Positions 7,701 to 33,084 of a stretch of 64,000 nt of DNA are shown one piece after another. Source of the DNA: Cladocopium goreaui. Taxonomy: Eukaryota; Sar; Dinophyceae; Suessiales; Symbiodiniaceae. Under the pieces are notes generated by a model, which made no database searches, was not told the DNA's origin, and was given only the letters and a program-made list of their open reading frames with translations. The stretch is from positions 1 to 64,000 of the forward strand of contig CAMXCT020001756.1 of NCBI GenBank assembly GCA_947184155.2. Direction: 5' to 3'. The first letter of the stretch is position 1, and each line of letters begins with the position of its first letter. A program made the position numbers and the translations under genes.

Positions 7701-8435
7701 TTATTTCCAAAGATTGAACCGCTTGCAAAACACATAGCACCGTGAAAACGCAACGTTAAAAAATTCGTGTCACCAAAAAATTTAAAAATCCGCTCGACGC
7801 ACAGAAAACAAGTTGGAAAAAACGACAGCTGAAGTTTCTGAAGAACGGTCTCTTTTTCCAACACAATGCAATTGGGGTCAGTCCTTTCACGCCCCGCCAC
7901 AGGGCTGAGGGCGTGGCATATAAAAAGTGTGTGGTTGCAAAAGGGTTGGGAAAAAGAAGGGTGGGAATTTGCAACCAAACAGGAAACAAACAGGGAGTTT
8001 CCCACCCACCACACCCTTAAGCCAAAATATTGCCATGCAATAAAAATCAGGATGTTTCTTTCCAACAACATTGGAAAGAGTTGTTTCAGGTTTGGAAACA
8101 TGTTTGTATAAAAAATTAAACGTCTTTGGTTTTCTTAAAAATTGGAGTACGTGTTTTTCCAGCTAACACTTTGCCACACAAAGTGTTTTCAAAAATTGGA
8201 AATAAGGTTTTCATCCCTGCGGGAGTTAAAAACTTATTTCCAAAGATTGAACCGCTTGCAAAACACATAGCACCGTGAAAACGCAACGTTAAAAAATTCG
8301 TGTCACCAAAAAATTTAAAAATCCGCTCGACGCACAGAAAACAAGTTGGAAAAAACGACAGCTGAAGTTTCTGAAGAACGGTCTCTTTTTCCAACACAAT
8401 GCAATTGGGGTCAGTCCTTTCACGCCCCGCCACAG
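7701..8435 (-). repeat. YR-2 B2-A2-B1 terminal repeats
   Basis: B2 (7701-7902) and B1 (8234-8435) are 202-bp direct repeats, identical as far as I can see. Between them A2 ends at 8233 (...GGAGTTAAAAAC) and shares 7966-8072 with A1 at 32710-32815. On the minus strand this is B1-A2-B2, the split direct repeat pattern of PAT/Ngaro elements. A2 holds a spliced-leader-like site at 8016-8037 (ATTTTGGCTTAAG, then GGGTGTGG). Positions 7903-7965 are spacer with no counterpart in A1. Confidence 0.88.
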
Positions 8436-8442
8436 CCCCACT

Positions 8443-10127
8443 TCAGCCACGGCGTGAACTTATGAATCCACTGACAGTTGACCACGGAATTTCAAACCTG
8501 GTGCACCCAAGAGCATTGACTAACTCGAAGTCTTGACGGCTAGGACCGTCACTCAAGTTGCTGTGCGTTGGAACTCTGTTGAACCAAGTTTTCAACTGAA
8601 GTTCGGCTTCAGCTATGCAGAAGTTACCTATTATGGCATTAGCCAAAGGGGTCGCTCCCGCACCTCTGATTAGCCCTGTTTTTGCTGCTTCATTGTCTAT
8701 GTAAAACACAACCTGACATGACTGCAGCACTTCTCTCCAAACTATTACAGCTACAAGAGCTGGTAGTAGCTCTACTTCATAAATCGGGTGCTTGGATTCC
8801 CGGTAAAAGAAGGACTGGATTTCATCCGGAAATTCTTCACCAAAGTACCCGAACGCAGTGCCAGTTGGTCCGATCAGCACTGCACCCATAGAAGCTTTGT
8901 TTTCACAAGCACCATCCGTAAAGCAAACCCAGGTCGAAAAAAGTTTCCTGGAAACCACAATAGGCTTACCAGCTCTAACTCTGTCCAGCAAAAGCTTCAA
9001 GGTCACACCCAGCTCATCCGACATGTTCTGAGTATGCTTAACTCCATTGATAAATTTGCTCAAACTGGCAACCAAGACATTCGCTTGCCGACCGCACACA
9101 AAGTTTTCATACCAAAGCAACCGTCCTCTCAAGCGCTCCACACTCTTGGCGGTGAAGCTCTGTTCCTTGAGCATTTCCTCAATCGTAGCCACCAATTCAT
9201 TCCTGCGACTTTCAGTATGGACCAAGGAAATAGTTCCACATGCAATTTCAGAGAGGTCAAAGATCACACCCAGTGACCCAAATGTCCGATCAAAGGTGGT
9301 TGCTTTCTTACCCTCCTTTGCGTAGAGGATTCCTAACAGCTCAAACAAGCACTCTGCACTCCATGCTGCATTGCTCGCACAATCTTCTCTGCTAATCATT
9401 GTGTAGTCATCATAAAAGCTCGTCCAAGCCAGTCGTAGTCCAACAACACCCAGGAACCACAGGAACATTGAAATTCTTAAGAAGCCAGATACACTTCCCG
9501 TGGCTCCAAATGGGAGTGCATTAACCATCAGCAGCACAATTTCTGAAGTTGTTGGTTTGCGTGTAGCAACCCTGATCCTCTGTCTGTCTTCAACACAAAT
9601 ACCAAATTGCTTGTAAGCGCTTTTTAAGTCCATGGCTTTCCCAAGCAAAGCCGGGTGAACTTCACCCTAGCCCAAGCTGCGTCTTGGCCACCTTCTAAAT
9701 CCACCTCCATCCAGCCCTCTTGCAGCTCCTTTTCAGTTTCCTCCCAAGTAGCTTCCCCTAAAAAGTCAGCAGTGGAACTTCCAAGCTTGGACTTGACTCT
9801 CTCATTCAAGCCTTTGCTCAAAGATTGCAACGTCTGCACATTCATACTTGGAGGTTTGTAGTCTTTTGGGAACACTTGCGAATCCGGTAGCCATCCAGTG
9901 ACTGGAAAACCTCTTGTTATATCACGTACCAACTCTTTGTCTGGATACTCGTAAAAATCAAGCATCTCTTGCCAAAGAGCCAACCTCTTGTTGTGAAGCA
10001 AACTTTGCAAATGTGGAGGTGCCTGGGCCAGCACTGCAGCATCCGCACCAGTTAAGAGTTTAGCTCTCTCCGTCCAGCGTTTCACAAAGTCAATGCGGTG
10101 CTTGTAAACATCAAAAGTTTTGGCATC
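8443..10127 (-). pseudogene. YR-2 reverse transcriptase and RNase H, internal deletion
   Basis: This is the 3' half of YR-2 pol, continuing from 27333 across the YR-3 insertion. Frame one (10127-9624) holds the pre-RT linker (YPDKELVRDITRGFPVTGW) and the (W)EETEKELQEGWM helix. Frame two (9648-8443) resumes at MDLKSAYKQFG (RT motif A), followed by NALPFGA, SFYDDY (catalytic FxDD) and an RNase H with TDGA, YEVELLP, YIDNEAA and NLSDGPSR (D-E-D-D residues all present). The RVIDDCS...NSTVG fingers segment seen in YR-3 and YR-5 is missing between the frames. The protein is therefore dead although its RNase H half is well preserved. Confidence 0.82.
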
Positions 10128-10211
10128 TTATTTAGTCCTAGGAAAACCGTGGGCACTATATATATATAAGACTCCAAGCCTATGTATACATATATCAGTG
10201 CATATATATAT
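10128..10211 (-). repeat. YR-3 B2 repeat, outer fragment
   Basis: This matches the start of B1 at 19642 (TTATTTAGTCCTAGG...CAGTGCATATATAT). YR-4 interrupts the match in the TA-rich tract at 10211; the rest of B2 is at 18943-19210. Confidence 0.9.
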
Positions 10212-11222
10212 GTTTGTGCTCGTCCCTTTGTAAATTAAATTTCTTATTCAAACAAACGTAAAACTCAAAACGCCACGCAAATCGCTCGAAGGTCGGACAT
10301 GTATTTAATATTTCTTTTTGTCTTTGCTTATCTTAATTGAGTCGGGGGTGAAACCGCACAAACACAAGTCAAGTGTCTGGTAACTGTTTCAGGTCAACAA
10401 GTCATGTCGCCTGTCACCCCCCCACAAGATAAGGGAGGGAAAACGAAGTTTGGGAGGGGATAGAAAAATCGAACGGGTCAAGTGCAACCCACCCTCCACA
10501 CCCTAGCCAAAATTGCGCGGAACATAAAATCAAAATGTTCGCAACAGAGCAAAAGGTGAGAAGACTGACATCAATCTGATCTAAATAAAAAGTGAGAAGT
10601 AAAGATCATCCTTCAAACAACAGTGACAGATGTAAATGTCACAACATGATAATAAACAGAAGTTGTTTGGAAACTTCAGTTGGTTTCCAGCATTCAGCCA
10701 GGAGCATCTGCCGCCGCACAAGTGCGGAATGGAAAAGGCGTCCAACTACGGAAGTTTCAGCAGATTTCACCGCACTTCCACACATCTTAAAATAGCTTGA
10801 ACAATTTGAACATGTTTAACATCTTCAACTCTTCACAGGAGGATCAGCTATATTTGCTTGACTCTGAAAGCTGAGCTGAAAACACCGCCAGGCTCACCAA
10901 CACCGTCAGTTGGTTTTCAGTTCATCAGATTTTTCTTTTTTTTGTTACAGGCGGTACGTTCGCAAGCTCACTACTCCCAACAAACAAAGGCCACAACAAG
11001 TTGAAGCCAAACGTTTGTGCTCGTCCCTTTGTAAATTAAATTTCTTATTCAAACAAACGTAAAACTCAAAACGCCACGCAAATCGCTCGAAGGTCGGACA
11101 TGTATTTAATATTTCTTTTTGTCTTTGCTTATCTTAATTGAGTCGGGGGTGAAACCGCACAAACACAAGTCAAGTGTCTGGTAACTGTTTCAGGTCAACA
11201 AGTCATGTCGCCTGTCACCCCC
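10212..11222 (-). repeat. YR-4 B2-A2-B1 terminal repeats
   Basis: B2 (10212-10421) and B1 (11013-11222) are 210-bp direct repeats that appear identical. A2 (10458-11012) repeats A1 (18360-18942) with a handful of substitutions, a shorter T run and no copy of the 26-bp duplication in A1. The main local difference is at 10503-10521, where the minus strand reads TCCGCGCAATTTTGGCTAG in place of the exact spliced leader of A1. The A2/B1 junction is CCAAAC-GTTTGTG. Reading frames in this stretch are not conserved between copies, so I call no gene here. Confidence 0.93.
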
Positions 11223-11248
11223 GTTTTTTTTTCGACATGTAAAGAGCT

Positions 11249-14200
11249 TCACTTTCTTGTAACTTCCAAGAGCATTGTTTCAGGCAAGCATATATCGCCT
11301 GCAAGGTTTCCTCCCGAGATTGCCTGGCATTCTTTCAGTTTGGAGCGTGACGGCAGGTCAGCAATGTTTGACTCCGAAGCCACCCTTTCATACCATGAAG
11401 CGGAAGGAAATTCTGCTTCTACTAAGGACACTGCACGACAGATGTTGTACATGGACAGTGAAGGGCTGGATCCTTTGATCAAGCAAAAACGTGCAGCCTC
11501 GTTGTCAACGAAGTACAGTGCTGAAGAATTGGAAAGTTCATTGCGGTAAAAATACCTCACAAGCAAAACTGCAACCAACTCAATTTGACAAATTTTCTGC
11601 TGAAGTCCAATAGATGTCCAGTGCTCCATCAGGACTGGTGGGATGGTTCCCCAGTGAATTGCATTAATGCCAAGTTGAGGGATTATGACAACTGCACCCC
11701 AGGTTCCATTCCCATTCTCGTACGCACCGTCCGTGTAAATCACTGCCGGACGATCGCTGCTCAGGAAGCGAATTTCTCGTGGTCGCATTCGGTTAATGAT
11801 CCTGCATGTATCATTGCACAAGCGCGATATGAGCTCTGTATCTGATGAACCTGACTGCAAACTTGCAAACTGTCTGGCGGCAGGCTTCAAACAACGTCCA
11901 ACCACAAAGCCACCAGCATAATTCAGCAATCCATGCATAGTCGCCGCCTCGGGTGCAGACACAGTACCCTTGGCAGCGTATGATTCAAGCATCTCCAAAA
12001 TCCTCTGTATCCGACTTGGGCGGTTCGCCACTGTCACTTGTTTGTTCCAAAAGTTCTGCAAGTGGAATGCTACTCCCAACACCTGCATGGTGTCAGAAAA
12101 ATCAACACTCTTTTTACCAGTCGTAGCATGCTTCCACCCAAGCAAATCCAAAAGGTGCTGCACCACGTTCGTAGTTGTTGCCGCCAAAGGTTCAAACTCA
12201 ATAACAGGAAAATCATCATAAAATACAGTGGTAAGGAGGTGAAATTTTCGAACCATCAAAGTCCAGATACCGCGCGTGATCTTGTTGAATGCAAAAACGC
12301 TGGACGTGGCTCCAAAAGGCAGTGACTTCGATATAAAGAACTTCCATTCGCCAGATTCACTTCGCACTCCCAAAACGCTATGTCTAGCAGACTGAGGAGC
12401 AACACTGACCTGCTTGTACGCCTTGCTCAAGTCGATGCCCCTGCCCAGCAGCAAAGGCTTTCGGTCGTAGTCAGGGTGCCTTCGACCAGTGAGGTGGTCA
12501 CCTGAAGAAAGTTCGATGTCGATATGTGGATCTCCGCAGAAAACACCCAAAGCAAACGCAAGAAAGCAACTGATTACGTCGGTGTCGTGCAGGTCAAGGT
12601 GCGACGATGTTCCAAAGGCCGCATTCACTCCCGACGTTTTGTAGTTGTCAATCACTCTAGGTTTAAGGTCTTCACCTTGCAAAAGAAGGAACCGTTGGGA
12701 CATTGACCAGTCCGCACGCCCAAGCCTTTCTGTTATATCAGACTCCAAAAAGGGACCATCCAGAAAACCAGCAGATACCTCTTTCATAGTTTCTTCCATA
12801 AGCAGTTTTGCAAGCCCACGTTCTTCGTCAGTAAAGGCTTTGCCCATAAGGGCTTTTCGTCGCCACAAAGCACTGTGGTCCAACTGTTCGCTTGTCATTG
12901 TAGGTGGAGCCCATCGTTGTTTGTACAAAGCGCTTTCGTCTTCCCAGCCAGTCAGGGGAACTCCTTCGCGCATATAGCGCACAACCTCCATGTCTTCGAA
13001 CCCAACCTGGGTCAGCAGTTTTTCCCAAAGTTCAATGCGTTTTGCCTTGGTCACCTCCGCCACGTTCTTGTCCATTTTGACTTTCGCCAGTTTCTCCGCA
13101 AGAGCCAGTCGCTTTGCAATTTCAACACATTCTCCCAGCTTGCTGATGCGGAACAGGGCAACATCTGCCATCGAGTGTGTTGCCACAAAGAAAATAGCTT
13201 TCTTCAAATCATCTGGTACACCCTTGTGCGTAAATGCAGGGTGCTGCAATTCTAAAGAACGCTTGAGGTGATCATGATGGTTGAAATAAATGCCAACCTT
13301 GTAGCTTTCAGCTGACCTCTCGCTGTCGTCTCCCCCGTGTCCCAAGCGAGCCAAAATTTTGTGTGGCAGTTGAGGGAGTACCGTAGTGACAATAATTTGG
13401 GAAAATTCAGGGATCAATTGGTCATGACCTTTGGCTTGAATGGATTGGGCCATTAAAGATTGCAGTCGAAAAAATTTTGAGTTATACTCCAGTGCATTAG
13501 CAGCGACCATTGTACTTGCACATTCAGCATATCGATCACAGAACATTGAAGGATATTGAGCTTCCGCTGCAGTAGAAAAAATCCACTTATCAAATCCACT
13601 GACAATTGTCCATGGCTCATGGTTGTGGGACTTGTCGCACATAATCCCCAGTGGCTCAAACTGTCGGGTCGACACCAGCAACTTGGTTGACTTGGCACGG
13701 TTTCCTCCGTGCATGCAAAAATCAAATTCCACGGGGTGAAAACAAAAATACCACTCAGCAAATTCAGGGCACTTGTGTTCGCGTGCATATTGCTTGACCA
13801 GTGTTGCAAGTACTGTCCATAACCACGATCGTAAAGGATTTTCCAGTGTAATGAATGCTCCAACACGAAAAAGTGCATGCAACAAGCGCACAGCATGTCT
13901 ATAAACAGTATTTGCAGCGTCAACTCTCTGCTGGTTCAGAGTGCTCAAATTTGGCAGGCCAAGTGGATGCAACGCGTCACGGAGTGGCGCAGGTTGAGGT
14001 GCTCCTTGAGAGCGTAATGCATGTGCAACCGGCACTTCTCGTGCTCGGCTGCAAGTTCCACACATAAGCCCAAAATGGGCTCCTACCGGCTTCATCTGTT
14101 CGATCATGCCTTCAAGGAGTGAAATATTCTCATGCAATGACAAATCCAACTCAAAAATGTGCATCTTGTTTTTGAAACGATTTGCATGATAGTCAATCGG

Positions 14201-14329
14201 AAAAACTTGCCAGCCCATGCGTTGCATTGATGCAGAGAGCGCAGCTGAGCCCGCACAGATTTCCAAAAAGACTATTGGTTTGTCTGCATGAGGGTGAGAA
14301 ATTGTATTGTCTTGTTTCGGCTCACCAAG
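11249..14329 (-). CDS. YR-4 pol: methyltransferase-like domain, reverse transcriptase, RNase H
   Basis: The frame is open from the Gag UGA to a stop at 11249 (1026 codons), with no AUG before the first motif. Counting from the Leu codon TTG at 14266 (residue 1), motif I is EICAGSAAL (2-10), the motif IV-like MCGTCSRAR spans 68-76, ENP is 142-144, HGGNRAKST is 186-194 and CDKSHNHEPW is 210-219: a C5-methyltransferase-like module. A linker (PEFSQIIV, 286-293) precedes RT with RVID (537-540), D612 in IDLSKAY, SLPFGA, and FYDD (682-685). RNase H shows D846, E896, D921 and D970. It would copy element RNA into cDNA. The role of the methyltransferase module is unknown. Confidence 0.88.
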   Translation of the reverse strand, partial: LGEPKQDNTISHPHADKPIVFLEICAGSAALSASMQRMGWQVFPIDYHANRFKNKMHIFELDLSLHENISLLEGMIEQMKPVGAHFGLMCGTCSRAREVPVAHALRSQGAPQPAPLRDALHPLGLPNLSTLNQQRVDAANTVYRHAVRLLHALFRVGAFITLENPLRSWLWTVLATLVKQYAREHKCPEFAEWYFCFHPVEFDFCMHGGNRAKSTKLLVSTRQFEPLGIMCDKSHNHEPWTIVSGFDKWIFSTAAEAQYPSMFCDRYAECASTMVAANALEYNSKFFRLQSLMAQSIQAKGHDQLIPEFSQIIVTTVLPQLPHKILARLGHGGDDSERSAESYKVGIYFNHHDHLKRSLELQHPAFTHKGVPDDLKKAIFFVATHSMADVALFRISKLGECVEIAKRLALAEKLAKVKMDKNVAEVTKAKRIELWEKLLTQVGFEDMEVVRYMREGVPLTGWEDESALYKQRWAPPTMTSEQLDHSALWRRKALMGKAFTDEERGLAKLLMEETMKEVSAGFLDGPFLESDITERLGRADWSMSQRFLLLQGEDLKPRVIDNYKTSGVNAAFGTSSHLDLHDTDVISCFLAFALGVFCGDPHIDIELSSGDHLTGRRHPDYDRKPLLLGRGIDLSKAYKQVSVAPQSARHSVLGVRSESGEWKFFISKSLPFGATSSVFAFNKITRGIWTLMVRKFHLLTTVFYDDFPVIEFEPLAATTTNVVQHLLDLLGWKHATTGKKSVDFSDTMQVLGVAFHLQNFWNKQVTVANRPSRIQRILEMLESYAAKGTVSAPEAATMHGLLNYAGGFVVGRCLKPAARQFASLQSGSSDTELISRLCNDTCRIINRMRPREIRFLSSDRPAVIYTDGAYENGNGTWGAVVIIPQLGINAIHWGTIPPVLMEHWTSIGLQQKICQIELVAVLLVRYFYRNELSNSSALYFVDNEAARFCLIKGSSPSLSMYNICRAVSLVEAEFPSASWYERVASESNIADLPSRSKLKECQAISGGNLAGDICLPETMLLEVTRK

Positions 14330-14332
14330 TCA
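14330..14332 (-). other. In-frame UGA between Gag and pol (YR-4), candidate readthrough stop
   Basis: The codon context is AAG-CAC-UGA-CUU-GGU. Gag and pol share one frame and this is the only stop between them. UGA followed by CU resembles known leaky contexts (UGA-CUA). Confidence 0.65.
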
Positions 14333-15553
14333 GTGCTTACACTCAATGTAAGGTCGCTTCTCTGTGCAACCCTTGTAGTAACATTGGTGAAGCCCCAAAT
14401 GACAACGTGCTTTCTTCTGATGTTTGCAAATCCCTCTGTTGTAGAAAACACACAGCCATTGACCGTTCGGCAGCTTGCTGGCGCAGCCGTCTGGCATGTT
14501 GGTGAGCATCTCTTTGATAGTGGGCCCAGAGCTGGGACCTGACGCAGCACCTTTCGACTGAAATTTGTTCTTCCCTTTGCCTTTGCCGGATCCACTGCTC
14601 TGTTCCCCTCGACTGTATGGCTCGGAACGATGTCCTGAAGGCGCTTCAGCGCGCACTGATGGCAATGGAGTCATGAAGCAAAGAACTTCAGGAGACCTCA
14701 TGTAATTTTTCAATTGCTCATCCAAAGGTGGTTTCTCACCTATGCCAGAAATCAACTTGCCACGGGTTTGCTGTGAGATGTGCATCCACAGTTGCTTGTC
14801 AGCACTCAAGATCTGCTGTGTCGTGACATACTTGTGTCCAGCTGGAGGCGGCCGCAACAACGCAGCAAACATCTGTTGATTCCACTCTTCAATCAAATCA
14901 AAGGTCACCAAATTGGTCTGATGCATGGCCAAAGATCGGCGTGTAAATGCCGCACGTAGTCTAAGCTCGCCCGAAACATCACATTGCAAGTCCTGAGCCT
15001 TCTTGGTGACTTTGAGACCTCCAGCATGGTCAATGCTCAGCGCTGACTCTTTCTTTTCCTTGGTAATTTCTTCTTCTCGTGACATGCACTTCTCAGGTCC
15101 TACATAAAGCAAGCAACCATCCTCGATCATGTTTTGAAACTTGTCAACCAATCCATGACTTGGTTCGACTGACGCGTCGATGATCAGGCCTTTCAATTCC
15201 TTTTTCTGTTTGTCAATCCTAGCAAGTCTCTCTGCAAGTGGCATTTTCCTAGGCTGGTCAGCCTCAGTTCTTTCTGTTCTGCTACGTATGTCAGAGAGCA
15301 CCATGGCATGCGCTTCAAACCACAGCCTACGAAGTGGAATCATTTCAGCTGGGGCAACCTCGACCAAAATCAAATCTTGGACTGCTTTCTTGAACTTCTC
15401 TTCAGTGTTTGAAGTTGGCGTTGCATCACTTGAAAAAGCAAGGCTCCCAAACGTGTCCAACCCAGCTCCCTTGAGCTTCTCTAGCAGGTCCTCTTGCATC
15501 CCTACTTCCAGCGCACGTGAGCTGAAAGCATGTTTCGAATCAAGTCCGGACAT
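14330..15553 (-). CDS. YR-4 Gag-like protein
   Basis: This 407-residue protein starts MSGLDSKHAF, matching the DSxAxF start signature of the other Gag proteins. It contains the shared central block (LYVGPEKCMSREEE) and a Gly/Ser/Lys-rich linker. The C-terminal cysteine-histidine cluster has C368-x7-C376-x7-C384-x4-H389 followed by C391-x4-C396 and C405-x-H407. Nucleic-acid binding and particle formation are inferred from position and the zinc motifs. The gene sits 600 bp downstream of the recombinase and directly upstream of pol in the same frame. No decay is visible. Confidence 0.85.
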   Translation of the reverse strand: MSGLDSKHAFSSRALEVGMQEDLLEKLKGAGLDTFGSLAFSSDATPTSNTEEKFKKAVQDLILVEVAPAEMIPLRRLWFEAHAMVLSDIRSRTERTEADQPRKMPLAERLARIDKQKKELKGLIIDASVEPSHGLVDKFQNMIEDGCLLYVGPEKCMSREEEITKEKKESALSIDHAGGLKVTKKAQDLQCDVSGELRLRAAFTRRSLAMHQTNLVTFDLIEEWNQQMFAALLRPPPAGHKYVTTQQILSADKQLWMHISQQTRGKLISGIGEKPPLDEQLKNYMRSPEVLCFMTPLPSVRAEAPSGHRSEPYSRGEQSSGSGKGKGKNKFQSKGAASGPSSGPTIKEMLTNMPDGCASKLPNGQWLCVFYNRGICKHQKKARCHLGLHQCYYKGCTEKRPYIECKH

Positions 15554-16154
15554 GGCTGCACTTTCGACCAGCCGTCGCTGAGTGATACAGTTTTATTGTT
15601 ATCTTGCAAAAGATTGTCAAGTCAAGAGCGAAACGTCCACTAAAGTGAGTTATTGATTTGAAAATCAACGCATGAAAAACAGTGTTCAACAAGATCGAAA
15701 TTGAAACGCAATGTTTCTTCATAAGTTGAACCACAGTCGTGAACCTTCAAACATGTGTCATTGATGCAATGAAATTCACACTGCAAGAAAACATACATTC
15801 ATGAAGCTGCTCACTGTTTTTCAAAGGCTCCGACAGTTGTGCATCGGATCATTGGTGCGCAAGTCATGCGCTGACTCTGAGCAATTCACGCATCAGGTCG
15901 ATGAAATTCAATTTCATGTTGTGCAAGTCACCACAAAGGAATTCAATTCACTCATTCCCTGTGTTGTCAGCTAAATTCATGCTGCAACAAATTGAAGTCA
16001 AGTCAAGCTGGGTAATGCAACAGCGAGATTCAAAAATCATACCAGCCAATGCATTGCCAGTAAGCAAGATTCGACATGTTTGCTGAACAGATTCCCGCCT
16101 TGTTTGTCTCTCGCCCGCCCCAACTCACGCTTCTGTTGCACTAAGCACTCACTA
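15554..16154 (-). other. YR-4 spacer between recombinase and Gag genes
   Basis: No supported ORF lies in these 600 bp. It is A/T-richer than the flanking genes and has no match to the terminal repeats. It may carry the splice acceptor or internal start for Gag mRNA; nothing specific can be identified. Confidence 0.4.
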
Positions 16155-18389
16155 TCAAGAATGCTGTGCACACTGAGCACAAAATGGAAATTCACATGCC
16201 ATTTCAAAATCAAAAGAAGGCTTCTTGTAGTTCGCAGAAACTTTTCGTGAACATGCCAAATTTTCACAGTCCACTGCTACATGCAAAACTCCTGACAAAA
16301 CATGCTGCAAACATGACTTGAAAATTTCTTCAGTCAACGGTCCATTGTGCACAGGTTTCTTTGCTTGAGGCACTGGCAGAGTTTCGCTTGCACCCAGCTC
16401 AATGGGGTCAACTGACTCGTCAGAATAGTTCTCAATATCGACATGTTCTGCATCTTGCAAAGTCTGTGCAGCAATCCGAGCAGCCCGAGTTGCATCAGGG
16501 TCAAAGTAACCCTTTCGAATGGAGTCCAGAATGCGCCACAACTTGGTTTGAATCTCGGCAAGCGCATCCCTCGAGTATATCAATGGCATTGCTAACCTGG
16601 AGTCAAAATGGTGCCCCATGATACGCCTCTCATCAATTGACATGGCTCCAGATGTTGCCGCCCAAGACAGTGCAGTAGCCTTCAAGGTGTGTGTGCTGTA
16701 TGAAGCCGCCTGAGCCTCACTCATACCAGAGTTGCACAGCAGCTCACGTAGAAAGTATACACCTTCACCAGATGTCATTGGACGATTCAACCATTGTGAT
16801 GTTTCTTCATTCCAGGCCGGCATCAAAAATTTGAAATGATCCATCTTTTGTCGCTTCCGGGCACGAATCCATGTCCATGCCCAAGAGTCCTTTTCGTAAA
16901 GCCCATTGCCCAGGGCCAGCATAGGAAGGGCAACATTCCTAGCTTCCTTGCCAGCCGTATGCGCTGTCTTGAATTTCATGCTTGACGTCTCCAGCAGTGA
17001 TATGTGACCACTCATGTCCAAATGCACGGTCTCCGCACGAGCTGCGTCAGCAAATCTTGCAGATGCCAGCAAACAAAAAATCATGAATCCTCCAATGCAT
17101 GCCTCCACATCGTTGCACTCACAGACATGTTTCTCCAAAGCGTACAACGCATCAGCAGTAAGTGGTGGAGCTTGCTTCAACTCCCTTTTGCCTGAAAGCA
17201 TAGTCCTGCTAACTCCGTTCACTCTGCCAGAAAAAATTTGAGCAACCTCCACCCTCGCAAAGCCAATGTGATGTTCGAAAAATCCAATTGCTTTGATAAA
17301 TGACTGCAGAGATGTTGCAGAGGCTCCGGACAGTTGCAAGTGCTTGGCATAGTCGTACACCACAGTCTCTGAAATGTTCATGGGATAGCAACGTCCCCCA
17401 TCAACTGCCCATCGTGCAAAACGGTGATAGTCTGCAACCCTTTTAGATACTGTGCCAGGCGCCTTGCCAGCAACAGCATCAATAAAGGAAGTTGAAATTT
17501 TCGACTCTGGTACCAGCTTTCCTGAAAAATCCAGAAGTGCTCTGCCCAGTCTTGAATCCAAAGGTTGAAAAAGAACTATCTCTTTGAGTTGCCGCATTGC
17601 ACAATCAACCAGCTGATCATCTGTTTTGGCAAATGCCGTTGCCAACAGTCTTTTGCGTTTGAAATCTGAGACTCCTTGCACCGGTTCCTCATGCGAGCTC
17701 ACTGCACTATGCACAACGCCCTGAACAGATTCAAACCGCCCATACATAGGCAGCTGTGGTTGCCTCCAAATGCTGTCCAGTGAAAATACATTGTCAAAAT
17801 CCATTCTATTCAAAAAAGAACTTGGCAGTGAAGAAGACCCAGCCACATGTTGAATCACAAGGTTGTCAATGGTTCGACTGACATCCATGTCAACTGTTTC
17901 AGCCAAGTTCCTATCAGCCCGTGCCTTGGCTGTGGGCACCATGAAGCGTCCAGTCTGGTTTTCAACGTCATCTGGTCTGACCAAACTTGCAGCGAGTGAA
18001 TATTCTTCCTCAATTTGCTGCTCTGCAAATTCCTTTTCCTCGTATCCAAACAAAGGACTGAAATGTGAATCTTGTCCAAAATCATGATCATTCAAAGCAT
18101 CTGGAAGTTGTACGTGTTCCCAGTCCATGTCGCTCTGGCCTCCATTGTCCCCTTGCGAAACAGGCCACTGCGCAGCACCAGCTGCATCTGGTAAATCGCC
18201 CAAACTGTGTGAATCACGCACAAGTACCATGAAAACAAAACACTTGCAAATCCAGGCAGTGTTCAAATGAAAACTGAAAGTTCTGTCAGAGAATGCACGT
18301 CCCGTAAAATCAAGATCTTCCAAAATTCTGTCAGGCATCCATGGCGATATGGAAAAATCGGATAGAAAAATCGAACGGGTCAAGTGCAT
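16155..18389 (-). CDS. YR-4 tyrosine recombinase
   Basis: The open frame extends back to 18464, but its first codons are the spliced leader itself. The first ATG after the leader is at 18389; MPDRIL (18338) and MDWEHVQLP are other options. Counting from the upstream ATG at 18464, box I Arg is R470 (SARFADA), box II is H592-T-L-K595, then G617-H618-H619, and the nucleophile is Y630 in IYSRD. All recombinases here have HxxK where the family usually has HxxR. An N-terminal SAM-like DNA-binding region (KRVADYHRFARWAV) precedes the catalytic domain. The tail ends VLHVAVDC..ACSRK...CEFPFCAQC, a possible zinc site. It would integrate the circular cDNA. Confidence 0.85.
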   Translation of the reverse strand: MHLTRSIFLSDFSISPWMPDRILEDLDFTGRAFSDRTFSFHLNTAWICKCFVFMVLVRDSHSLGDLPDAAGAAQWPVSQGDNGGQSDMDWEHVQLPDALNDHDFGQDSHFSPLFGYEEKEFAEQQIEEEYSLAASLVRPDDVENQTGRFMVPTAKARADRNLAETVDMDVSRTIDNLVIQHVAGSSSLPSSFLNRMDFDNVFSLDSIWRQPQLPMYGRFESVQGVVHSAVSSHEEPVQGVSDFKRKRLLATAFAKTDDQLVDCAMRQLKEIVLFQPLDSRLGRALLDFSGKLVPESKISTSFIDAVAGKAPGTVSKRVADYHRFARWAVDGGRCYPMNISETVVYDYAKHLQLSGASATSLQSFIKAIGFFEHHIGFARVEVAQIFSGRVNGVSRTMLSGKRELKQAPPLTADALYALEKHVCECNDVEACIGGFMIFCLLASARFADAARAETVHLDMSGHISLLETSSMKFKTAHTAGKEARNVALPMLALGNGLYEKDSWAWTWIRARKRQKMDHFKFLMPAWNEETSQWLNRPMTSGEGVYFLRELLCNSGMSEAQAASYSTHTLKATALSWAATSGAMSIDERRIMGHHFDSRLAMPLIYSRDALAEIQTKLWRILDSIRKGYFDPDATRAARIAAQTLQDAEHVDIENYSDESVDPIELGASETLPVPQAKKPVHNGPLTEEIFKSCLQHVLSGVLHVAVDCENLACSRKVSANYKKPSFDFEMACEFPFCAQCAQHS

Positions 18390-18942
18390 AGAAAAATCGA
18401 ACGGGTCAAGTGCAACCCACCCTCCACACCCTTGAGCCAAAATGGCTACGGAACATAAAATCAAAATGTTCGCAACAGAGCAAAAGGTGAGAAGACTGAC
18501 ATCAATCTGATCTAAATAAAAAGTGAGAAGTAAAGATCATCCTTCAAACAACAGTGACAGATGTAAATGTCACAACATGATAATAAACAGAAGTTGTTTG
18601 GAAACTTCAGTTGGTTTCCAGCATTCAGCCAGGAGCATCTGCCACCGCACAAGTGCGGAATGGAAAAGGCGTCCAACTACGGAAGTTTCAGCAGATTTCA
18701 CCGCGCTTCCACACATCTTAAAATAGCTTGAACAATTTGAACATGTTTAACATCTTCAACTCTTCACAGGAGGATCAGCTATATTTGCTTGACTCTGAAA
18801 GCTGAGCTGAAAACACCGCCAGGCTCACCAACACCGTCAGCTGGTTTTCAGTTCATCAGATTTTTCTTTTTTTGTTACAGGCGGTACGTTCGCAAGCTCA
18901 CTACTCCCAACAAACAAAGGCCACAACAAGTTGAAGCCAAAC
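18360..18942 (-). repeat. YR-4 A1 repeat (5' terminal repeat)
   Basis: This is the 5' end of the element on the minus strand, ending GCCAAAC at 18942, and it matches A2 (10458-11012) along its length. It carries the perfect spliced leader about 490 bp from the outer end. A 26-bp tandem duplication (18363-18388 and 18389-18414, TAGAAAAATCG...AGTGCA) is absent from A2. Confidence 0.93.
18431..18452 (-). promoter_or_regulatory. Exact dinoflagellate spliced leader sequence in YR-4 A1
   Basis: The minus strand reads TCCGTAGCC-ATTTTGG-CTCAAG, a 22/22 match to the consensus dinoflagellate spliced leader (first base T). It is followed by GGTGTGGAGGG. No splice donor or Sm-type site follows, so this is not an SL RNA gene but a leader copied into DNA from a trans-spliced mRNA. 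Confidence 0.93.
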
Positions 18943-19990
18943 ATATATACACGCTCGCCGAGTCTCGATACGCTTTGTCCTATACGCTTGTCACTCAAAC
19001 CATGCTGGCTCCTCCCCCCACGGGGGTTCCTTCACTTTCATTTTTTCAAATTCTTCAAAAATCAAAAATTCAAATCGTTCCGCATCTCAGTCCCTCAAAA
19101 AAAAACATGTTGCAAAACTGACGGCGATTTCACTCGCACAGAAAAAACGTAGCCCCTTTTTTCAACTGGCGCATTGGGGAGAGCGTTCTTGGTCAAGCTG
19201 CCGTTCTATCAACGGTAGGGGTAGGCTAACAAACAGTTGTTAATACTGATTTCTGTGGCTCTCGAATCCTGTTAAGGAATGTCGTCTGCCAACAAACCAG
19301 TATTAGTGGTGTGAGGGAGGGACAAAAAGGGCGGGTGTTGTCACACCACGTTCAAGGCTGGTGAGCGGAAAGGACTTCGACATTCGAAGATTCATTCACT
19401 TGTACTACACTATACAAGATCAACAGGTTGGTAAAACTGTTTCACGTTTGTTTATTTCAGGCAGCAAGGTTTCTGTTCTGTGTTTGACACAAACATCACA
19501 ACACGAGAGAAAAACAAGCGACATCCACAAAGCGTAGTTAATTTAAAATTCAAAAATTTTTGCCCACTATGTTTTTGTTTGACAAAAACATTTTTCCTTT
19601 GGCCAAATAAGGTCACGATCTTTGTACCAAAGAGTAGTAACTTATTTAGTCCTAGGAAAACCGTGGGCACTATATATATATATATAAGACTCCAAGCCTA
19701 TGTATACATATATCAGTGCATATATATATACACGCTCGCCGAGTCTCGATACGCTTTGTCCTATACGCTTGTCACTCAAACCATGCTGGCTCCTCCCCCC
19801 ACGGGGGTTCCTTCACTTTCATTTTTTCAAATTCTTCAAAAATCAAAAATTCAAATCGTTCCGCATCTCAGTCCCTCAAAAAAAAAACATGTTGCAAAAC
19901 TGACGGTGATTTCACTCGCACAGAAAAAACGTAGCCCTTTTTTCAACTGGCGCATTGGGGAGAGCGTTCTTGGTCAAGCTGCCGTTCTAT
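18943..19990 (-). repeat. YR-3 B2 (inner part), spacer, A2 and B1 repeats
   Basis: Positions 18943-19210 complete the B2 repeat started at 10128. Positions 19211-19335 are spacer. A2 is 19336-19641 and matches A1 at 27027-27332. B1 is 19642-19990 and repeats B2, differing in TA-tract length and a few bases. The junction GTAAC-TTATTT joins the two element ends as in a circle. No supported gene lies in this stretch apart from the end of pol at 19974. Confidence 0.92.
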
Positions 19991-22900
19991 CCCCCATTTC
20001 GAGATCCAGCCCAAGAACCTTGCGCATTGCCAGCCAGCAAATTGGCCCTTTCACCGCGCCCAGGTCAAGAAGGAGTTTATCCTCTAGCCGGCTGGGTGAA
20101 TCCGCCAAGTTAGAAAGAGAAGGGACTCTGGCAAACCACGACTTTATCTGAAGTCGCATCTCTTCACCTGTGAAGGTCTCTAGCATGGCCCCCGCCACCA
20201 AAGTTGCCCCTTGGCCTTTGATAAAAGCGGATCTGCTAGCCTCGTTGTCAAGGTACCAACACATGTGCAAGAGTTAGGCGGTTGCCCCACATCCAAATCG
20301 CAATGATGACTGGAAGGACCTCAAGCTCATATATCGGGTTCTTTGACTTCGTCAAAAGATGATCCATGATTTGGTCCGGCACTTTTCCTCCAAAGAAAGA
20401 AACGACCTTGCCAAATGGGTCAATCAAAACTCCACCTATGCCGCCTTCCTTCTGGCCCTCCGGCCCTTCGCAAGCGCCATCTGTGAACACTATCCATGAC
20501 AGTAAACAGGATGGAGTGATTGACAACGGAGGAGCTGTAAGAACCCTCTCACAAAGAAATCTGAGCGAAGTCATCTGGGAATCCGACAAGTCAATTTTCC
20601 GACGGCCACTCAAAGCTAAGTCCCCTAGGACTTTAACTGCACTGTTAGCCACCCTTCCAAAAGCAAAAGATTCAAACCAGTGTAATCGACCTCGCATAGA
20701 CTCAGCTTGCTTGGCTGTGACACACTTCTCTTTGAGAATGTCCTGCAACACAGAACTAAGCTCATCACGCCGTTCCTGGGTATGCCCCAGGCGCACAATT
20801 CCAGACTCAAAGTTTTCCAAGTCGATTTCTACGCCCAGGCTCTTGAATACCTTTGCAAAAGCGCCGGCTTTCGTGCCGTCACGCGCAAATTCGACCCCCA
20901 ACAGGTCAAACAAGGTCTCCACCGTCTTCGCCGTGTTGGAAACCAAAGCATCACATGAGAAAACCGTGTAATCATCAAAAAAGGCTGTCCAAACCAACCG
21001 AAAGAGCGCAACCCCCAGGAAACAAATGGCTAAACTGACTCTCAAGAAGCCACCCACAGATCCTGAGGCTCCGAATGGTAAACTGTTTATACCAAAAAGG
21101 GAAGTGCCACCCGTGACCGGATTTCGGACTGCAAGTCTGATCACCTCACGGTCCGCTGCTGATATTCCGTACTGCTTGTATGCATGTTTCAGATCGTAGG
21201 TGCGGCCAGAAATGCCCCCAATGCCACGGCCCTTTTGCGTGACGTCCACCAAATAGGCCAGAAAAGCTGCACACTCATCCATGGCATGCACACGATAATT
21301 TTCCACAGCTCCAACTGTTGAATTGATTCCTCCAATTGAGCAATCGTCAATCACCCGCAACTTCCCGGCCTTCTGCACCAGGCCAAAACGTTTAGCAAGG
21401 AAAAAACTCATGGGATCTGCTCCATCGTCGGGCCAGATGTATCCCAACTCCACTTCTTCCTGTGTTTTCTCCCATGTGTTTTTAACCAACTCAGCGTCCT
21501 CCCTGTCATCCCCTAGCTGCTGCAAGATTGCTCTGTTGAGACCCTGCGCCATCTGCTTCAACGTACCAAGGGAGAATTGCGGCCGCTTCACACATTGAGG
21601 AAAAATACCAGTCTTACTCTGCCACCCAGTTATGGAAAACCCATGAGCTATGTCCTCAACAAGCTTCTTATCCGGATAGTCAACCGCCTCCAGCATTTCC
21701 TTCAAAAGCAACAACCGCTTACGACGCATCAGTGGCTGCATGTGTTCAGGCAAACTTTGCTTGAACTCCAATTCCTGCTGCTTGAGCTGTTCAGCTCTCA
21801 AGGTCCATTTTGTAAGTTCCCTACAACGCACCAGGGCTAGGTCGGCAGGCGCCATAGAAACATTCTGCTCAATGACATCCTTCACCAACTGAGGCAAATG
21901 CACCGCCATCCCTCTTGGGTGGCCACATTTTACAGCTCTTTCACAAAAATCCAATGGCTCTCTTGGTAGGCCAAATTGTGACACCATTGCTTCCTCATCG
22001 CCAGCACACCCTTCCACTGAAGGGTGGACTATAGTATCATCAACCCGAACTTCACCCCTCTTAGAGACACGTTGATGTATCAGCTTTGCTCCTGCTGGCA
22101 GTTGTTCCTTAGGTGTGTCCACATGTAATGCATGGGTGACGGTGTAATAGCTACCATATTCTGAAACCAAAGGTTTGAAACGCTTGCCCCTAGGAAGTGC
22201 TGACAAAACCAATCTGTGCAAGGATGGTTGCTCGACTTCGATCTGCTGTTGTAAGTGGTCTGCATCGACCACTCCAAGTTCCAACCATTGCTGTCGGACT
22301 ATCTCCGCCATTCGAGTGCACAAAAGGTTTGGGTATGCTGCTTCCTCTGCTGTAGGGTAGTGCACTTTCCCGTCCACAACTTGCGGACGCCAGCTTTTAT
22401 GCTTATGATGATCTTCTCCAGGGCAAGCGGCTGCTAAGGGAAGTAGCCATGACATTGAACCCCAAAAACGGGAACTCTTCTTTCGTGCTCCGCCATGACA
22501 ACAGTTGTCGAATATGCAGTCATATCCGCCAAGTTCTTCCAGTAGGGCTGCAATGCATGGCACTATCCAGAAAAGGCTGTTTGTCGGGTTTCGACTGTAA
22601 CAAAGACCCCCCAACGCACCAACATGCGTACCAAGTCTGCAGTGACCTGATACACATGATTTGCCGCTTGTGTTCGGATCAAGTCTGTGCCAGAAAGGTT
22701 TGGCAACCCCAGCGGGTATTCAACTGACCTCAAAGGTTTTGGCACCCTAAACCCTGCTTTCTGAAGGGTCTTATTCGGTTTCTCCCTTGCTTTGGATGCC
22801 GTCCCACATGCTGGTGCAAAGTGAGCCCAACCCAAATTATCCTTTTCAGCTTCCAAAAACTGCTTCAGCATTTCAAGCTCTTCCGGTTTGGTCACATCAC

Positions 22901-32697: not shown

Positions 32698-32709
32698 GAA
32701 CCCCCAGGC

Positions 32710-32815
32710 AATTTGCAACCAAACAGGAAACAAACAGGGAGTTTCCCACCCACCACACCCTTAAGCCAAGATATTGCCATGCAATAAAAATCAGGATGTT
32801 TCTTTCCAACAACAT
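32710..32815 (-). repeat. YR-2 A1 repeat, truncated by YR-5
   Basis: It matches A2 at 7966-8072 until ACAACAT, where YR-5 begins (32816). A2 continues TGGAAAGAG, so the missing part of A1 should be found on the far side of YR-5. A spliced-leader-like site lies at 32760-32781, with one change from its A2 partner (ATCTTGG versus ATTTTGG). Confidence 0.85.
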
Positions 32816-33084
32816 TTATTTCCAACTCCACAACAGGCACCCCAGAACACATCTCGTATAGTGTAAAATCGAAAAGCATATACATACCCATACACTGAAT
32901 TGTATATGTATATGTCAACGTCGCATATTCACGATACGCGCTCGCAGTTCGGTTCTAAACAAAATTAAAATAGATTGCAAACGACATGTCGAAAGATCTC
33001 AGAGAATGAAAGCACAGCAGAGAAAATGAGGTCACACATTTTTCTCGACAGCAAACGGGGCAAGGTCATCACCTTCCGGCCTCT
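32816..33084 (-). repeat. YR-5 B2 repeat
   Basis: It repeats 61413-61683 with a few substitutions and a different TA-tract length (GAATTGTATATG versus GAATTATATATATG). It starts TTATTTCCAACTCC at the junction with YR-2 and ends CCGGCCTCT. Confidence 0.93.

Follow-up and report, generated by a model that had tools for sequence, protein, structure and literature searches.

A spliced leader captured once inside the end repeat of YR-4, a DIRS-like retroelement of the dinoflagellate Cladocopium goreaui

Organisation of the YR-4 element

The window analysed here is the whole stretch of 64,000 nucleotides (nt) from positions 1 to 64,000 of contig CAMXCT020001756.1 of Cladocopium goreaui (assembly GCA_947184155.2; genome of 1,165,616,438 bases, or 1.17 Gb, in 6202 contigs). 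On its minus strand lies YR-4, a DIRS-like element of the A-coding-B-A-B type with two A repeats, of which A1 carries an exact dinoflagellate spliced leader (SL) and A2 carries an SL-like relic. The SL was captured a single time, in one lineage of the YR-4 family, and this lineage has moved at least once since. The element comprises the following features:

10212-18942, minus strand: whole YR-4 element, in the order A1, tyrosine-recombinase (YR)-type open reading frame (ORF), gag-like ORF, reverse transcriptase (RT) ORF, B1, A2, B2
18388-18942, minus strand: A1 end repeat, 98.4% identical to A2
18431-18452, minus strand: exact 22-nt SL in A1, TCCGTAGCCATTTTGGCTCAAG, the final AG being a trans-splice-type junction
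18362-18387 and 18388-18413, minus strand: 26-nt tandem duplication (two units) where A1 ends on its inner side, shared genome-wide by the two SL copies alone
18387-18389, minus strand: new in-frame ATG at the duplication junction, adding 17 amino acids (MHLTRSIFLSDFSISPW) to the YR-type ORF
16155-18389, minus strand: YR-type ORF with conserved residues of the tyrosine-recombinase kind, without Pfam match
11249-14266, minus strand: RT ORF, matching RVT_1 at E 4.3e-05, under the gathering score
11013-11222, minus strand: B1 repeat, from repeat matches
10460-11012, minus strand: A2 repeat, from repeat matches
10503-10521, minus strand: 19-nt SL-like relic in A2, TCCGCGCAATTTTGGCTAG, the norm of the YR-4 family
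10212-10421, minus strand: B2 repeat, 100% identical to B1

The order of the repeats is evident from the identity of A1 and A2 over 556 nt and of B1 and B2 over 210 nt. No Pfam domain was found in the YR-type ORF, even at E values up to 10, and the ORF was judged from its homologues and conserved residues instead. Across an alignment of 10 homologues, R392, K421 and H514 never vary, and H541 and Y552 are conserved at 90% or more; we take these residues to be the catalytic set of a tyrosine recombinase. The gag-like ORF has no Pfam match, and the match of the RT ORF to RVT_1 is weak (23.8 bits, against a gathering score of 29.6). The window copy of YR-4 lies in an AT-rich stretch, which would hide any short target-site duplication.

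The leader in A1 and the relic in A2

An exact 22-nt SL in A1 and a 19-nt SL-like stretch in A2, placed between the same flanks (ATGT before, GGTGTGGAGGG after), had been reported in a preliminary description of the locus, and both were confirmed. The last 21 bases of the SL match the window only once at up to 3 mismatches (mean of 0.00 in 100 shuffles). The relic of A2 resembles the SL beyond chance: its global score of 11.5 against the SL was reached by none of 20,000 letter shuffles, and among the 8483 19-mers of YR-4 only 9 score at least as high, namely the relic and 8 that share bases with the A1 leader.

The SL in A1 ends right at the AG where trans-splicing would join the leader. About 490 nt of the A repeat are kept in front of it, both in the window copy and in a second SL copy on contig C2945. 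The picture of an SL at the 5' end of an insertion, with unrelated DNA in front, therefore does not apply to YR-4, because the A repeat stands there. The leader is adjoined by the 26-nt tandem duplication, which goes with the SL and had gone unmentioned in the preliminary description. The ATG made by the duplication in the SL lineage lies 41 nt past the acceptor and is in frame with the YR-type ORF.

The preliminary description had proposed that mRNA of the element was trans-spliced, reverse-transcribed with its new leader and extended past it on the leader relic of A2, so that the B1-A2-B2 structure would restore the lost 5' part; in its general form, this would happen as a routine and the structure would exist for this purpose. 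The SL in A1 and the relic in A2 are consistent with such a scheme. Moreover, the relic keeps TCCG and ATTTTGGCT, so that a complementary DNA (cDNA) ending in the SL could anneal to A2 and prime synthesis. The states of the leader and of nearby variants across the family bear on this proposal.

Leader states across the YR-4 family

Using a pattern that demands both flanks exactly and leaves the gap between them free, and which misses copies with mutated flanks, 92 genomic sites were found, of which 2 carry the SL, 85 the exact relic and 5 a variant of the relic. The relic, in place at 90 sites, is the ordinary state of A1 and A2 in the family; the stretch in A2 is indeed SL-like, but it is not, as previously suggested, the product of decay private to the A2 of the window.

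By spacing and strand, 37 paired elements can be told apart among the 92 sites, 33 of them regular and 4 irregular, besides 18 singles. The exact relic stands in A1 as well as in A2 in 31 of the 37 pairs. In three further pairs, A1 holds the relic and the A2 version departs from it by one base, and the old copy C5961 has two different relic variants. Only the window copy and C2945, which form one lineage, combine the SL in A1 with the relic in A2. The leaders of a pair are thus mostly equally diverged, so the expectation that A1 leaders generally stand nearer to the consensus than their own A2 leaders fails, and the family contradicts the view that B1-A2-B2 routinely restores what trans-splicing removes.

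A 30-mer that runs from the SL into the G-rich block, sought with up to 3 mismatches, occurs in the genome only at the window and C2945 loci, and the same is true for the duplication junction (up to 1 mismatch). Since both marks are confined to the same two loci, whose insertion flanks differ, they define one lineage that goes back to a single leader capture and has transposed at least once after it. The distance between A1 and A2 is 7928 in both SL copies, which equals the 7899 of three other copies plus 3 for the leader and 26 for the duplication; it ranges from 7726 to 7909 in the remaining regular pairs. It also stood up to scrutiny that the A1 leader is the new one and that the switch is confined to the leader, joined exactly at the trans-splice AG.

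A comparison of the bodies of the window copy, C2945 and the relic copy C19 (7374 aligned columns) was tried as a further sign of a shared ancestry of the two SL copies. The window copy has 4 private substitutions and C2945 has 23, and C19 alone differs at 4 positions. Without an outgroup this comparison cannot prove common ancestry of the SL copies and it was dropped, so that the ancestry rests on the SL and the duplication.

These data also bear on two other explanations. That the SL is ancestral in A1 and that the relic was put into all other copies later is very improbable: no direct evidence speaks for it, although the relic is itself SL-like, and the SL occurs at 2 of the 92 sites, both with a duplication absent from any third place and with flanks that are otherwise as in the relic copies. 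A solo insertion of an SL copy, or an error of the assembly, is scarcely credible. Exact SLs do occur 172 times in the genome; however, the relic was replaced rather than added to, and two contigs with different flanks show the same state.

Inheritance of variants in A1 and A2

The comparison of A1 with A2 covers 31 regular pairs, all of the 33 but C5804 and C5857, and leaves aside the 4 irregular pairs and the 18 singles; the A1 of C2871 is cut by the end of the contig. Some insertions are possibly non-independent, as C2209 and C2651 share one flank, C4636 and C2721 another, and C558 and C1756b a low-complexity flank. Columns 65-80, 277, 459 and 490-515 as well as all gaps were excluded before variants were counted, and a 5-nt deletion and 500G were added to the set by eye.

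This yielded eight recurrent non-homopolymer variants with 24 occurrences (123C, 210G, 221G, 350G, 399A, 454C, 500G and the 5-nt deletion at 217-221). None of them is found in both the own A1 and the own A2 of any element. The variants 350G and 454C each occur in three A1s and no A2, 500G, which lies within the relic, occurs in three A2s and no A1, and the others are found in A1 in some elements and in A2 in others. Since A1s and A2s of different elements carry the same variants, exchange does happen, but A1 is not recopied from its own A2 in each cycle. Pointing the other way, the homopolymer variant 70 (one A fewer) is present in both the own A1 and A2 of C2945, C36 and C2429b; because homopolymer lengths recur easily, such variants were left out of the count.

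The simplest reading of these patterns is that the transposing RNA would normally hold A1 from at least position 350 inward and run through the relic unspliced. Alternatively, they may stem from transfer from an unread A2 of another copy. As a routine, the rebuilding of A1 on the own A2 after trans-splicing appears unlikely, given that the SL is present in only 2 of the 37 paired elements and that the recurrent variants are never shared within an element; moreover, split direct repeats are also described for YR elements outside dinoflagellates, such as VIPER (PMC6681497). For the single event in the SL lineage, however, trans-splicing, reverse transcription and recovery of the upstream part remain the likeliest reading.

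The private substitutions in the 31 YR-4 copies are unevenly distributed, with 17 in A1 and 5 in A2 (two-sided binomial p 0.017).

A putative trans-splice acceptor in two element families

YR-4 is inserted in the B2 of another element, YR-5 (B1 about 19641-19991; B2 18943-19210 and 10127-10211), which in turn lies inside a third YR element (B1 8234-8435, B2 7701-7902, A1 near 32707-32816). By our own reading of the repeat matches, positions 7701-32816 would thus hold three nested YR elements. The third element represents a second family with leader-like sequences in its A repeats; over 382 residues, its RT fragment shares 28% identity with the YR-4 RT. Its cassettes are located as follows:

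7997-8028, minus strand: leader cassette in A2 of the second YR family, ATTTTGGCTTAAG then GGTGTGGTGGGTGGGAAAC
32741-32769, minus strand: leader cassette in A1 of the second YR family, of the same kind as in A2

The cassette of this family takes forms such as ATTTTGGCTTAAG or ATTCTGGCTTAAG, followed by GGTGTGGTGGGTGGG; at the same place, YR-4 has ATTTTGGCTAG followed by GGTGTGGAGGGTGGG. A genome search for the G-block with up to 1 mismatch gave 34 sites (27 exact). Of the 30 sites that were read, 28 are YR-type repeats and two (L179 and L180) are unrelated. The first G of the block is preceded by A in all 28 YR-type repeats, and the base before that A varies (A, T or G). Eleven of the 28 repeats were found by no pattern that holds the leader, and these 11 still carry TGGCTT and AG. 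The likeness of the second-family leader to the SL was compared with that of other places: none of 2941 places was as good in L125, L126 and L129, 1 of 2941 in L121 and 3 of 2941 in L128, and none of 81 in six shorter loci; the two unrelated loci gave 19 of 81 and 1 of 81. Furthermore, the first ATG lies 62-63 nt after the AG in all 14 second-family A1s that were read, and in the relic copy C19 of YR-4 it lies 62 nt after the AG, the preceding 507 nt holding 10 ATGs. The long ORF of YR-4 starts at an overlapping ATG, four bases past the one at 62 nt.

The AG before GGTGTGG in the A repeat is thus a probable trans-splice acceptor ahead of a short, ATG-free 5' untranslated region. Several points weigh against this assignment. 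The reversed G-block, used as a control, gave 20 matches at one mismatch, compared to 34 for the true block. The G of the acceptor AG belongs to the search pattern, and a pattern with TTGGCT and AG had likewise picked up 17 of the 28 repeats, so that the conservation of an AG shortly before the first ORF partly reflects the construction of the patterns. The ATG at 62 nt in YR-4 opens three codons only (ATGGATGCCTGA), which is an imperfect match to the second family, and in L125, one of the 14 A1s, early stops interrupt the frame. Finally, YR-5, which is nearer to the second family by RT (43%), has no clear cassette on inspection, so the cassette is not universal. A step in conservation at the leader was not used as evidence, being itself partly a product of the search pattern.

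The second family offers a parallel to the variants of YR-4. Both C966 and C4212 have CTTTAG in A1 and CTTGAG in A2, which again suggests separate inheritance of the A1 and A2 leaders; the A1-A2 spacings of these two copies differ. Strong homogenisation in the second family is not claimed, as the outer identity of own A1 and A2 in three pairs (0.96, 0.94 and 0.97) overlaps with that between elements (0.73-1.00).

Beyond the nested elements, the window from 33140 onward is occupied by a very large array with a period of 14 base pairs; between 36359 and 61043 there are inverted arms, 164-186 nt long.

Other spliced-leader loci in the genome

The exact 21-nt SL is present at 172 sites genome-wide, and the reversed pattern at none; 100 of the 172 sites are among the matches listed. 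Besides the two YR-4 copies, 81 loci were read, including the near-duplicates L023/L024, L155/L199 and L158/L209. When the 143-240 nt in front of these 81 SLs were compared with the window at E 1e-4, no match was obtained, so none of them looks like a repeat of YR-4, YR-5 or the third family, other YR families being outside the comparison. A loose test for a tandem relic behind the SL is passed by 19 of the 81 loci, and 2 resemble SL RNA genes. A separate scan scored 40 of 107 candidates, and one (L029) of its 30 loci was read.

In four of the 81 loci (L015, L021, L204 and L208), the 18-34 nt that follow the SL, or in L021 the SL with its tandem relic, are also found in front of the SL, right after an AG. 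The upstream copy stands directly before the SL in L015 and L204, 1 nt away in L021 and 24 nt away in L208. These loci score 18-34, compared to 10 for the next best locus and 9 for the best reversed-sequence control. They look like cases in which the SL-bearing cDNA of a trans-spliced messenger RNA (mRNA) has rejoined its own gene, an event for which no B1-A2-B2 structure is required.

These host loci make patching at the level of DNA a serious rival to strand transfer on A2. In this case, an SL-cDNA would have recombined with a resident genomic copy, and neither A2 nor the replication of the element would have played a role. The tandem duplication in YR-4, which resembles a repair joint, fits such an event. 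However, the relic was replaced in YR-4, whereas the upstream copy was kept in the four host loci, and the left joint at TCCG equally fits pairing with the relic. Taken apart from the broader explanation of which it is one version, we regard recombination with a resident copy as a real prospect, yet lean against it.

Some further SL loci deserve mention. In L020 and L026, an 89-nt unit (CTGGGTAAATTATAACG near its start) stands directly before the exact SL and the sequence behind differs; L157 and, by eye, L133 have only the first part of this unit in front of the SL. The unit and the SL possibly form a chimera that arose when the template was switched at the leader's 5' end, and an Rfam search with the unit from L020 and L026 gave no identification. 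In L011 and L150, the SL is followed by GTACACATTGGG with 92% identity over 213 nt, as in an SL RNA gene, and L011 also contains three transfer RNA genes.

Proposed mechanism of leader capture

We hold it moderately probable that the mRNA of YR-4 is trans-spliced at the conserved AG, that the transposing RNA normally is not, and that a rare SL-cDNA patched A1. The AG before GGTGTGG would serve as acceptor for the translated mRNA, as its conservation suggests. The RNA that is normally reverse-transcribed would start farther upstream in A1 and read through the old relic unspliced, as the recurrence of variants suggests. Once, and recently, the cDNA of a trans-spliced mRNA, ending in the SL, would have been joined to an A copy. 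The left joint would lie at TCCG, four bases common to the SL and the relic, and the right joint would have left the 26-nt overlap, which stops where A ends on its inner side. A single patch, in which the relic and 17 nt were replaced by the SL and 43 nt and the 490 nt in front were kept, could account for both joints. The patched element then transposed at least one more time and passed on the SL in A1 together with the relic in A2, as two copies with different flanks show.

Because the 490 nt in front of the SL are kept, the cDNA with the SL must either have used another A copy as a template for its extension or have recombined with one. This copy, which donated the upstream part, could have been A2, reached by strand transfer while the RNA was reverse-transcribed, or a copy resident in the genome with which the cDNA recombined. 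The A-outer segments of both SL copies carry private substitutions only, so the donor cannot be named from them, and A2 as the template of the single capture event is possible but unproven. It also counts against the proposed mechanism as a whole that one capture event is documented, so that the mechanism rests on one pair of joints, and that acceptor use, as well as the point where the transposing RNA starts, is deduced from genomic DNA rather than from transcripts.

More tentatively, dinoflagellate YR retroelements may possess a self-renewing acceptor, an idea that we put forward as a speculation and would not expect to hold. The SL-like relics of YR-4 and of the second family would be the footprints of older captures, and the SL in A1 a fresh one that has not yet reached A2. 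The SL itself ends in the AG acceptor, so each rare capture of an SL-cDNA would rebuild the same site, and, thanks to the B1-A2 template, the copying of a trans-spliced RNA would not cost the element its left end.

Comparison with known systems

All mRNAs of dinoflagellates are said to receive the SL (PMC6050394). Trans-splicing should therefore strip off the left end on which the transposition of a YR retroelement depends. The DIRS elements described from Symbiodinium, SymbioDIRS-Dnmt3 among them, have the same A-coding-B-A-B order as YR-4; their tyrosine-recombinase ORF stands apart from the RT ORF, as does the YR-type ORF of YR-4, and a shuffled ORF order has been reported for them (PMC5890265). 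The main text of that paper does not contain the word 'leader'. The Dnmt3 domain that characterises SymbioDIRS-Dnmt3 was not detected in the RT ORF of YR-4, where no DNA methylase Pfam match was obtained at E values up to 10.

Recycled, SL-tagged genes with relics are known from dinoflagellates (PMC3229502, PMC6050394, PMC12014239). In the recycled genes of Slamovits and Keeling, as described in PMC3229502 and PMC6050394, the SL was copied into the genome from trans-spliced RNA. As proposed for YR-4, these genes take their SL from RNA, and a later leader is spliced at the AG inside the older one (PMC3229502, PMC6050394). They differ in that the new SL stands at the 5' end with the relics in tandem downstream, whereas in YR-4 the relic has given way to the SL and the preceding sequence is retained.

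A precedent for the combination of a trans-spliced mRNA with a long RNA that lacks the leader is the retrotransposon Cer1 of Caenorhabditis elegans, in which an acceptor for the SL lies close to the 5' end and the long RNA is left without trans-splicing at that site (PMC3315495). Unlike YR-4, Cer1 is related to Gypsy/Ty3 and uses SL1, and genomic capture of the leader is not among the properties described in the relevant sections of that paper (PMC3315495). VIPER of kinetoplastids, which has been compared with Ngaro and PAT, shares with YR-4 the split repeats (A1 ... B1-A2-B2) and has a tyrosine recombinase, comparable to the putative one of YR-4 (PMC6681497). The term 'spliced leader' does not occur in the main text of the VIPER paper, even though the hosts trans-splice (PMC6681497). 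In the titles and abstracts of the literature searched, mostly outside subscription papers, we found no description of an end repeat of a YR element that has captured a leader and retained the part upstream of it.

Going by the variants in the YR-4 family, the transposing RNA seems to avoid splicing at a site that is conserved all the same, and one recent accident shows the outcome when an SL-cDNA enters a YR element. Moreover, judging from the four host loci, an SL-cDNA may be able to go back into the gene it came from without loss of the promoter side, and such a return would bear on how recycled dinoflagellate genes stay expressed.

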